The notes under the pieces: model-generated | What the model was told of the DNA's origin: nothing | Databases searched by the model: none | Seen by the model: the letters and a program-made list of their open reading frames with translations, nothing else | Shown here: positions 32,038 through 57,384 of the stretch, one piece after another | Numbering within the stretch: the first letter of the stretch is position 1 | Layout of the letters: every line of letters starts with the position of its first letter | Position numbers and translations under genes: made by a program | Source: Halobiforma lacisalsi AJ5 | GTDB taxonomy: Archaea; Halobacteriota; Halobacteria; Halobacteriales; Natrialbaceae | Direction: 5' to 3' | Length of the DNA stretch: 64,000 nt | Assembly (NCBI RefSeq): GCF_000226975.2 | Contig: NZ_CP019285.1 | Coordinates: 930,001 to 994,000, forward strand

Positions 32038-34464
32038 GGCCGACTCGAGCCGCGAGCGGAACCGCTCGAGGCCGTACTCGAGCATGTCCGAACTGACCGA
32101 CTGGAACTCGCCGTCGTCGGGCAGGTATTCGCGCACGGAGTCCCAGCTATCGCGGGCGTAGCGCTCGTCGAGCAGGACCCGCACCCCGACGTCCTCGGGC
32201 GAGCGGATGACGCGACCGATCGCCTGCCGTGCCTTCCGGACCGCAGGGATCGTCAGCGCGTACTCGAACCCCACGCCAGACGCTGATGCGCCTGGCTTGC
32301 TCCCCGACCGTTGCCCGGGGACGTCCCCGAACGCGTCGTCGTAGGCCCGCCGAACGGCCTTCGTCCGCGGGCTCGAGGTGTTGACGATCGGGACGCCACA
32401 GACCACGGCGGCCGAGAGCCGGTCGCCGCTGTAGTCGACCCCCTCGGTCAGCGTCCCGCGCAGGCTCGTCACGAGCACCTTCCCGTCGCCCGCGAAGAAC
32501 TCGGCTTTCAGCGACTGGGTCGTCTCGTCGTCGCTCGAGGCGTCGAGCAGGACGGGTTTGTCGACTCGTTCCTCGAGTTCGCCGGCGATCCACTCGGCCT
32601 CGGCGTAGCTGGGCATCCCGACGAGGACGTTGCCCGGGAGCCGGGCGACCTTCGAGACCGCGTCGGCGTAGTGGGTCCTGGTCGGGTTCTCCTCGCCCGG
32701 ATAGCCACGGTTGTCGTAGGTGAACTTCGGCGCGGCGACCGCGAAGCTCTCGCGGTTCTCCTCGGGGAAGTGTAGCCCGTAGCGGCGCTCGACGATCGGC
32801 CTGTCTTCTTCGCGTGCGAGGTACTCCAGTCCCGTCACCTCGGTGAAGGCGTCGATCGGCTCGAGGGTGGCACTCATCAGGACGCCGCCGCCGAAGGCCG
32901 CGAGCCGTTCGCCGATGGCGTCGCTCGGGACGCAGTTGTGCAGCGCGAGGCGAGCGTTGTAGGCTCGCCGCCAGGAATCCGCGGGTTCGGTGTCGTCCCA
33001 GGTCCGCTCGAGTTCGATCTCCCGGAAGTAATCGGTGTGATCGCGGCGGTACCACTCGCCGAGCACGCGGCCGACCGCGGGCGCGGCGCGGGTGCGCTCC
33101 TCGTCCTCGGCCTCGTTCAGGATCCGGGCGACGACGGCCCCGACGGCTTCGGCGCGGACCCACTCGGCGTCGCCGTAGCCGGCCTCGCGGGCCCACTCCG
33201 TGATCTCGTCCTCGGCGGGTTCCGCCGGGTCGCGCAGGGGGAGCTCGTCGTCCTCGAGATCGTTCAGGTTCGATTTCCACCCCCTGTGGTTCCGGTCGAG
33301 ATAGGCCGTCACCCGGCGGTCGAGTTCCGCCCGGAGGTCGCCGATGAACTCGAGGGTGCGGTTGAGTTCCTCGTAGGTGACGTCGCTGTCGTTCAGTTCG
33401 GCGCGCACGAGGTCTGCATCAGCCGTCTGGGAGCCCCCCTCCGCGCGTCGCCCCTCACGCTCGAACTTCACCGGCTGAATGACCCGCGAGAGTTCGGTCT
33501 CGGCGTCCCGCAGCGTACGGTCCCCGACCCCGTCGCTGACTAGATCCCGGACCCGGGGCTCGAGCATGTGCGCCTCGTCACAGACGACGAACGTCGAGTC
33601 GTCGAGCAACGCGCCCGTAAATGAGCCGACGGTTCTGGGGTCGAACGCGTGGTAGTAGTTGCCGACGACGACCTCGACCTGGCCAAGCGCCGCGCCCATC
33701 ACCGAATGCGGGCAGGTGCCGTTCCGAGCTGCGCGGGCCACCAGGTCCTCGGGGGTGACCATCCCGGCCTGGGTGAAGTCGTAGGGGACGGCCTCCGCGG
33801 GGTCGCCGGTTCCGTCCTCGCTTTCCGGCAGGTCCTCGAGGTATTGGGCGTAGAACGGGCAGTACTCCGTGGCGACGCCGGCCGCGCCGCCGTCGTCGTA
33901 CTCCGGGAGGTCCCGCGGGTAGGGCGTCGGTTCGCCCGCAGTCTCGAGGTAGGTCCCACTGTTCGTACGGCCGCTGTCGGCCAGCCCGATCTGCTGGCTA
34001 CGGGCCCGCGCGGCGAGGTTTTGCGCGGTCGTCTCGCCGCCCTCGCCCGTGAGGTCACGGGTGCGGTCCCGCAGCGTCTCGCAGCGGTCGTAGACGTTGC
34101 CGTCGTCGATCTCCGCCGCTCCCTCGCGGTTGTACGGACAGACGTCGGCCTTGCCGACCAGCGTGAGCCCCGAGACGGGCCGCCAGTCGTCGGGCAGGTT
34201 CTCGTTGATCGTCTCGAGGTCCGCCTCGAACTGGCGCAGTTGCTGTTTGACGCTCGTGAGCACGAGGACGCGCTCGTAGTCGCTGTCGGGGTCGCGCACG
34301 AGGTCGATCCCGGCCGTCAGCGCGAGCATGGTCTTCCCGGTGCCACAGGCCCCCTCGACGACGGTGTAGCCGCCCTCGCGGGCGGTCTCGATCGCGGTTT
34401 CGATCCCGTCGACCTGCTCGTCGTAGGGTTCGGCGTGGCCGAAGATCGAGCGCCAGTCCGTCAT
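32035..34464 (-). CDS. XPD/Rad3-like ATP-dependent DNA helicase (Fe-S)
   Basis: An 809-aa superfamily 2 helicase. Walker A is GACGTGKTM near residue 41 and the DEAH box VVCDEAHML near 300. Between them the four Fe-S cysteines of the XPD family are found in KADVCPYN, YDRCETL, TEYCPFYAQY and NGTCPHSVM. C-terminal motifs include LMSATLEP, TSLRGTLTEGVDYSGDRLSAAV and RKARQAIGRVIRSPEDVG. It should unwind 5'-3' in repair or R-loop processing. Start is ATG at 34464 (MTDWRSIFGHAEPYDEQ). The stop codon TAG (32035-32037) lies within the terminus of the IS, so the last residues may not be original. Confidence 0.92.
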   Translation of the reverse strand: MTDWRSIFGHAEPYDEQVDGIETAIETAREGGYTVVEGACGTGKTMLALTAGIDLVRDPDSDYERVLVLTSVKQQLRQFEADLETINENLPDDWRPVSGLTLVGKADVCPYNREGAAEIDDGNVYDRCETLRDRTRDLTGEGGETTAQNLAARARSQQIGLADSGRTNSGTYLETAGEPTPYPRDLPEYDDGGAAGVATEYCPFYAQYLEDLPESEDGTGDPAEAVPYDFTQAGMVTPEDLVARAARNGTCPHSVMGAALGQVEVVVGNYYHAFDPRTVGSFTGALLDDSTFVVCDEAHMLEPRVRDLVSDGVGDRTLRDAETELSRVIQPVKFEREGRRAEGGSQTADADLVRAELNDSDVTYEELNRTLEFIGDLRAELDRRVTAYLDRNHRGWKSNLNDLEDDELPLRDPAEPAEDEITEWAREAGYGDAEWVRAEAVGAVVARILNEAEDEERTRAAPAVGRVLGEWYRRDHTDYFREIELERTWDDTEPADSWRRAYNARLALHNCVPSDAIGERLAAFGGGVLMSATLEPIDAFTEVTGLEYLAREEDRPIVERRYGLHFPEENRESFAVAAPKFTYDNRGYPGEENPTRTHYADAVSKVARLPGNVLVGMPSYAEAEWIAGELEERVDKPVLLDASSDDETTQSLKAEFFAGDGKVLVTSLRGTLTEGVDYSGDRLSAAVVCGVPIVNTSSPRTKAVRRAYDDAFGDVPGQRSGSKPGASASGVGFEYALTIPAVRKARQAIGRVIRSPEDVGVRVLLDERYARDSWDSVREYLPDDGEFQSVSSDMLEYGLERFRSRLESA

Positions 34465-56911: not shown

Positions 56912-57009
56912 TCGCTGGGTGGGCGAGCGAGGGAGTCCTCGATCCCCAGGCCGACTCCCTCGCCGATAACTGGCCGCTATAATTCAGATGGCCGATAGTT
57001 TTACTGTCC

Positions 57010-57190
57010 GGTAGAGAGACGTTCAACCTGGCGGGATGGGGGGTTCAGTCGTTGCCACGGTCACGCCCATCCGGTGACCGGCCGTATCCCGCCACCGACG
57101 TATCGTCCGCGGTGGTCGCCCACCGCCGCGTCTTCCCGCGCCCGTTAGGGGGCTCGTTCGACCGGCCGCTTTCAGTCGGCCGGCTTTTCT
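57010..57190 (+). ncRNA. Candidate structured non-coding RNA
   Basis: A 180-bp segment between lysC and tnaA which can fold into three strong hairpins: a 9-bp outer stem TGGCGGGAT (57029-57037) with ATCCCGCCA (57086-57094) enclosing CGGTCAC (57058-57064) with GTGACCG (57074-57080); GCGGTGG-TCGC-CCACCGC (57109-57126); and CCGGCCG (57162-57168) with CGGCCGG (57177-57183) followed by CTTTTC. A TATA-like CTATAATT lies at 56977-56984, about 27 bp ahead of the probable 5' end. Homology to a known RNA family not recognised. Confidence 0.5.
57162..57190 (+). terminator. Terminator-like hairpin
   Basis: A 7-bp GC stem with an 8-nt loop followed by CTTTTCT, at the end of the candidate RNA. Confidence 0.5.
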
Positions 57191-57384
57191 ACAGGCGCAG
57201 CAGGCCGAGTGACGTCGCCGTCCGCCGTCCAGTCACCCCGTCATCGTCTAGTCACCTCGTCGTCGTTCCTCGAGGTCCGAACCTGTCCATCGCTGTCCCG
57301 ACCCGTCGCTTACACCGCGGGTAGATCCGCCGGTAGCCACGTTCCGTCAGTCGATTTGAACTGTCGCGGTCCCGGAGTGGGGGT

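Follow-up and report, generated by a model that had tools for sequence, protein, structure and literature searches.

A candidate free-standing structured RNA between lysC and tnaA of Halobiforma lacisalsi AJ5, and the RNA family of Natrialbaceae to which it appears to belong

It is seldom that a new, widespread family of structured RNA with several copies per genome comes to light in Archaea, where the mechanism of action is known for few small RNAs (sRNAs). Among described systems, type III toxin-antitoxin modules have the gene order RNA, terminator, open reading frame (ORF), and the Y RNAs are the partners of the protein Ro60. In the haloarchaea themselves, the Haloferax RNAs sRNA132 and s479 (PMC6560208, PMC8155600), each studied singly, are free-standing intergenic sRNAs that are presumed or have been shown to act on other genes. 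Candidate structured RNAs have also been collected by comparative genomics and covariation (Weinberg et al. 2010, PMC2864571), in a paper whose text makes no mention of Halobacteria or haloarchaea. Here we analyse the lysC-tnaA interval of a 64,000-nt stretch of the Halobiforma lacisalsi AJ5 genome (the window, whose numbering is used below). The explanation that best accounts for our observations as a whole, and probably the correct one, is that this segment is an independent RNA gene belonging to a new family of Natrialbaceae.

The first-pass annotation had placed four perfect stems of 7-9 bp, one of them nested, in this segment. They are present (9, 7, 7 and 7 bp at 57029-57183; Table 1) and exceed both sets of controls: neither the 300 Markov controls (mean 0.7) nor 300 segments from elsewhere in the window (mean 0.85) contained an instance of at least four compatible (non-overlapping, non-crossing) perfect stems of at least 7 bp in 181 nt. 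The GC hairpin and T-run proposed as the end of the segment were also found, with CTTTTCT following P5 directly at 57184-57190. The TATA-like element was misplaced. It had been put about 27 bp upstream of the first stem, but the sequence in question, CTATAATT (56977-56984), lies 44 bp before it, and is probably the wrong box, as it is GGCCGATAGTTTTA that carries the spacing fixed throughout the family. No ORF of constant length was found within the RNA.

Table 1. Features of the RNA gene between lysC and tnaA (window positions)
Feature	Position	Strand	Description
RNA gene	57028..57190	+	about 162 nt; promoter spacing places the 5' end at the start of P1, hairpin and T-run mark the probable 3' end
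Promoter element GGCCGATAGTTTTA (BRE + TATA)	56990..57003	+	25 nt between its end and P1
Core domain	57029..57094	+	P1 around GGGGGnTTCA-GTCGTTGCC and the nested P2
P1	57029-57037/57086-57094	+	9 bp, perfect
Unpaired block GUCGUUGCC	57048..57056	+	most conserved; in many relatives it caps a hairpin as its apical loop
P2 hairpin CGGUCAC/GUGACCG	57058..57080 (57058-57064/57074-57080)	+	7 bp, perfect, nested in P1
P3 hairpin GCGGUGG/CCACCGC	57109..57126 (57109-57115/57120-57126)	+	7 bp, perfect
Conserved unpaired block GUCUUCCCG	57130..57138	+	the same or almost the same in every Halobiforma-type copy, including the paralogues
P4 CCC-GUUA-GGG	57141..57150	+	short, weak alone in the window; longer in Natrinema
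P5 GC hairpin and U-run	57161..57190	+	intrinsic-type terminator; stem 57162-57168/57177-57183, 7 bp

The folding energy of 57010-57190 is modest (z = -1.57, with 11 of 200 shuffles equal or better) and z is -2.10 with the refined ends 57029-57190; energy alone is a weak argument for an RNA at 57010-57190. The interval's z-score would be in keeping with chance hairpins in GC-rich DNA and no RNA at all, a reading that we consider extremely improbable in view of the stem count and of the conservation, P1 covariation and promoter spacing described below. Two further features flank the gene. An 11-bp perfect hairpin (56927-56937/56953-56963) stands 16 nt past the lysC stop codon, just ahead of the RNA promoter, and probably terminates the lysC transcript upstream of the RNA gene. 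Two adjoining 19-nt direct repeats (CGTCCAGTCACCCCGTCAT and CGTCTAGTCACCTCGTCGT) occupy 57226-57263, between the RNA and tnaA.

Within the genus, all five genomes keep the segment in its place between lysC and tnaA, and named records that show this pattern are those of Halobiforma haloterrestris and H. nitratireducens. The window RNA is 95, 93, 77 and 77% identical to its counterparts in the other four genomes, and in the distant pair (77%) only the promoter and the RNA can be aligned while the flanks cannot. Among the five orthologues P1 is essentially invariant and P5 with its U-run is conserved, whereas the other stems vary in a compensatory manner, with P2 changing from G-C to C-G in one genome (G001) and P3 from U-A to C-G in another (G004).

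The constant position upstream of tnaA in the five genomes is what would be expected of a cis-acting leader or riboswitch of that gene, as had been offered for the segment in terms of a leader upstream of tryptophanase. Homologues nevertheless adjoin unrelated genes in both orientations, the other four AJ5 copies are located elsewhere, and the window RNA has a terminator hairpin and T-run of its own, with 194 nt separating its end from the start codon of tnaA. We therefore dropped the leader interpretation as very unlikely.

To describe the distribution of the family we used covariance models built iteratively from 7 sequences (R1), 18 cores (R2) and 66 cores (R3), with E limits of 0.1, 0.1 and 0.05, respectively. 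The window RNA is matched at E = 2e-33 by R1 and 2e-9 by R3, the E-values of this series being rough by construction. The number of positive genomes among 125 Natrialbaceae was 22 with R1, 43 with R2 and 70 with R3, and the weak matches that we inspected mostly have the promoter, P1 and the terminator. Partial matches that had appeared early on in related genomes (L006, L010) turned out to represent paralogous copies, including one tandem pair. A genome may hold up to 12 copies (12 in G075), and five are present in AJ5: the window's own (C1:987029), a tandem pair (C1:1848362 and 1848642), C1:2085588 and C2:56999. In another genome four divergent copies are arrayed within 800 nt (L144:3606-4409, on G004:C4), of which copies 1, 2 and 4 have, by eye, a promoter of the family type.

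In an order-wide sample, 49 of the 52 positive genomes belong to Natrialbaceae. Matches outside the family came from G213, G155, G176 and G384, and we inspected the first three. None was accepted as a member: that in G176 lies inside a long open frame that reads as ribonucleotide reductase, that in G155 has nearly the same sequence and no promoter, and that in G213 lacks the promoter motif. The first-pass annotation had looked to other haloarchaea for relatives of the segment; this was borne out as far as Natrialbaceae (the 70 genomes above) and was too wide beyond them, where no match is convincing. Sequence comparison thus places the lysC-tnaA RNA in what appears to be a previously undescribed structured RNA family confined to Natrialbaceae.

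Members of this family sit on chromosomes, on plasmids and in one virus. One large subgroup is that of Natrinema, in which plasmids also carry members, and no annotation lies under the matches. When the window region was compared by BLAST with plasmids and phages, nothing relevant emerged apart from a chance match to a Gordonia tail gene, which we discounted. The halovirus HJTV-4 has two tandem RNA copies (L167:3909-4420; OP374082.1, about 33600-34150) adjoining RelE/ParE and DUF4065 genes, and a matching plasmid of Natrinema thermotolerans A29 likewise carries two in tandem. One of the virus copies has lost the GUCGUUGCC block and retains P1 and the terminator. The models matched none of 23 viral contigs that contain the short motif CAGTCGTTGCCnGACRG; the only viral contig matched was the HJTV-4-like L200.

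Multiple copies, tandem arrangements and carriage by plasmids and a virus are also traits of small mobile elements, and a MITE-like element could have repeats that resemble RNA stems. The copies within a genome are, however, mostly divergent rather than recent duplicates, no transposase is a constant neighbour, the promoter spacing is fixed and the helices are preserved by compensatory changes, so that we regard this origin as most improbable.

The compensatory changes are clearest in P1. Across 65 distinct cores, in an alignment that was fitted to the model and is thus biased towards P1, this helix is paired in 91.2% of cells compared to 78.3% after shuffling, and double-change cells number 98 against 31.2 (reached in 0 of 500 shuffles, with no slid control coming close). 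Double changes affect 8 of the 9 pairs, and the covariation score is 0.475 compared to 0.227 for shuffled alignments. The same helix, drawn from the window sequence, can also be formed by the unaligned sequences of 20 members that were found by motif. Typical 5' arms, each accompanied by its complement, are GGCGGGA, GGCAGGG, GGCGAGG, GCGAGGGG and GCGCGGGG.

The full-length alignment of the A12 subgroup was too gapped to assess the structure as a whole. In 13 full-length Natrinema-type RNAs, P1 to P5 taken jointly are 97% paired and their covariation was equalled in 0 of 500 shuffles, with 8 pairs showing a double change and 17 such cells against 6.4 in shuffles, spread over P1, P2, P3 and P4. 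P3 is here a longer covarying stem, and P4 is also longer and switches from A-U to C-G and from A-U to U-G. The covariation of the stems that the first-pass annotation had proposed as a check is thus present, for P1 in 65 members and for P2 to P4 in the 13 Natrinema-type RNAs. In distant members other hairpins occupy the position of P2, and because P2 to P4 vary between subgroups, the features found in every subgroup are limited to P1, the core block and the terminator. In general, P1 encloses one or two small hairpins, and one or two more stand between it and the terminator hairpin. Single-sequence folds of two relatives (L149 and L123) and of the window RNA agree in the order of the helices, namely P1 with its inner hairpins, P3, P4 and P5. 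Members also fold better than DNA of the same strand 700 nt away (mean z of -1.9 versus -0.35, p = 3e-10).

The unpaired elements are conserved as well. GUCGUUGCC is nearly invariant in alignment A14, and in L149 and A12 it forms the loop of a covarying hairpin, presented on stems such as CUGUC/GACAG, CCGUC/GACGG and CUGUC/GGCAG. A second conserved loop, GAGACA, occurs in many members on another inner hairpin, which was drawn by eye. Part of the first loop suggests a different role, that of an antisense RNA to 16S rRNA, as UCGUUGCC could base-pair with GGCAACGA (position 1036 of the AJ5 16S rRNA), with complementarity reaching at most 12 nt in certain Natrinema copies. An 8-nt match to rRNA is not rare, however, and the longer matches stem from the 3' strand of the hairpin itself. 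We rejected this reading, which has hardly any probability left, because the invariant block GUCGUUGCC is one base longer than the complementarity.

Of 65 distinct members, 52 have the element GGCCAAYARGTTTA upstream of P1 with its end 24-26 nt ahead of the helix. Comparison of the upstream DNA with GGCCRRYARRNTTR gave a best score of at least 11 of 14 in 56 of the 65 (86%) compared to 11% of random 60-mers, and the motif ends exactly 25 nt before P1 in 40. The known archaeal spacing between TATA box and start site puts the start of transcription at P1, and the recurrent distance of GGCCAAYARGTTTA therefore indicates that transcription probably begins there. A T-run is positioned as expected in 52 of the 65, so that a promoter and a terminator of the RNA's own are present as sequence matches. 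The strict promoter motif has only four occurrences in the AJ5 genome, of which one precedes an RNA copy. Elsewhere in that genome (G000:C1:407080-407123) the promoter motif occurs twice, 30 nt apart, with no family RNA found behind it.

Promoter, fold and terminator are thus common to homologues in unrelated gene contexts, which upholds the earlier proposal of a free-standing RNA of about 180 nt, with the length now put at about 162 nt. Judged from these comparisons, a real family of free-standing RNA genes is almost certain. RNA polymerase would initiate at P1 and terminate past P5, and the product would be a free RNA that is stable.

No gene was found to be a constant neighbour over all RNA loci; subsets of them adjoin genes for HalOD1, DUF7344, a DnaJ-like protein or a protein of 59 amino acids. 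The unrelated neighbours, together with the several copies per genome and the spread over chromosomes, plasmids and a virus, suggest that the RNA has its effect in trans. As the loops are invariant while the scaffold that carries them covaries, they may serve as the binding site of a protein or of another constant partner. A trans-acting, protein-bound regulator is the likeliest role of the RNA, to which we give slightly less than an even chance. The variable and often C-rich loops of the 3' hairpins (GAUCACC, CACCACC) would be the parts most likely to pair with target mRNAs, close to sequences that resemble Shine-Dalgarno motifs. After the core, GATCACC is present in 15 of 65 members and CACCACC in 21 of 65, compared to 1-2% in shuffles, but this enrichment is weak evidence for pairing since common descent explains part of the recurrence of these motifs. 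Pairing with mRNA through these loops is unlikely on present evidence, and the least certain of the functions that we propose.

The 59-aa protein deserves separate consideration. Among 96 listed RNAs, 17 are followed within 700 nt by its ORF, always on the same strand, and the gap from core to ORF is usually 167-179 nt, which is just past the terminator. We take the association to be real, since by our own estimate an ORF of this copy number should fall so close by chance for only about 0.1% of RNAs. The protein forms a multi-copy family of its own in 75 of 125 genomes, with many copies broken by stops (examples of the gene are L184:933-1109, L134:2761-2940 and L150:2265-2432), and structure prediction gives it a compact fold of three helices (pLDDT 93). 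It had no match in Pfam, NCBIfam or PADLOC, nor did its predicted fold have a significant one in the PDB, and these same comparisons matched none of the known type III toxin families. At several Natrinema loci a second small ORF, acidic in composition, lies just upstream of the RNA (L128:2858-3106, L129:3254-3478, L132:2767-3087 and L133:2785-3054); the one that was scanned had no Pfam match.

The RNA and the 59-aa protein could form a two-gene module, either similar to type III toxin-antitoxin systems or consisting of an RNA and its binding protein, in which case the copies without the protein would be orphaned or served by a protein encoded elsewhere. The RNA-terminator-ORF order is that of type III systems, the gene (gp44) follows the two tandem RNAs of HJTV-4, broken protein copies are what decaying modules would leave, and AJ5 itself encodes the protein (G000:C2:175198). 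Against this, most RNAs, including that of the window, have no such ORF nearby, the protein is found in genomes with no detected RNA, and it resembles no toxin, defence protein or solved fold. In the sequences inspected the ORF also has, by eye, a TATA element of its own about 25 nt before its ATG, and hence need not share the transcript of the RNA. We consider the module rather doubtful. In a broader form, RNA family and protein might together be a new archaeal RNA-protein system of regulation or of conflict between host and mobile elements, in which four-helix RNAs with a GUCGUUGCC/GAGACA core would be common to chromosomes, plasmids and a temperate halovirus; this, too, we hold to be unlikely, if slightly less so.

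Returning to the RNA family itself, the first-pass annotation had recognised no known family, and this is supported: at gathering threshold, Rfam 15 gave no match in the window or at the RNA in ten other loci with members, where only a tRNA was reported. The best match at the window below threshold was CRISPR-DR15, with 17.1 bits against a threshold of 36, and C/D box RNA and CRISPR repeat RNA were rejected as identities, the curated models matching only below threshold. The open-licence papers that were searched contain no description of the family, with a 2017 set of 224 motifs compared only by way of Rfam, which likely holds many of them. As the family can be found by model and promoter motif, occurs in culturable genera, is carried by a virus and shows strong covariation, its role is directly testable.

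Compared with the systems outlined at the beginning, the Y RNAs share a closed basal helix, conserved loops and the character of a small multi-copy RNA. Some Natrialbaceae encode a TROVE (Ro60) protein, in one case 2.8 kb from an RNA copy (G075:C1:2957214). TROVE is nevertheless present in only 12 of 125 Natrialbaceae genomes and absent from AJ5 and most RNA-bearing genomes, so that a Y RNA bound by Ro60 is largely refuted by this distribution and is the least probable of all the readings considered. The ToxI RNAs of type III systems share with a subset of our loci a structured, sometimes tandem RNA followed by a terminator and a small ORF, as well as occurrence on plasmids and in a virus; unlike them, most copies here have no ORF, and the 59-aa three-helix protein is outside every Pfam family. 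With the candidates of Weinberg et al., as represented in Rfam, the RNA has in common the type of evidence, comparative genomics and covariation, and no Rfam family matches it. The Haloferax RNAs are likewise free-standing and intergenic; compared by description, they differ from a family that is multi-copy, covarying, built of four helices and restricted to Natrialbaceae. We regard the family as new, and the general kind to which it belongs, the free-standing intergenic small RNA, is already known.
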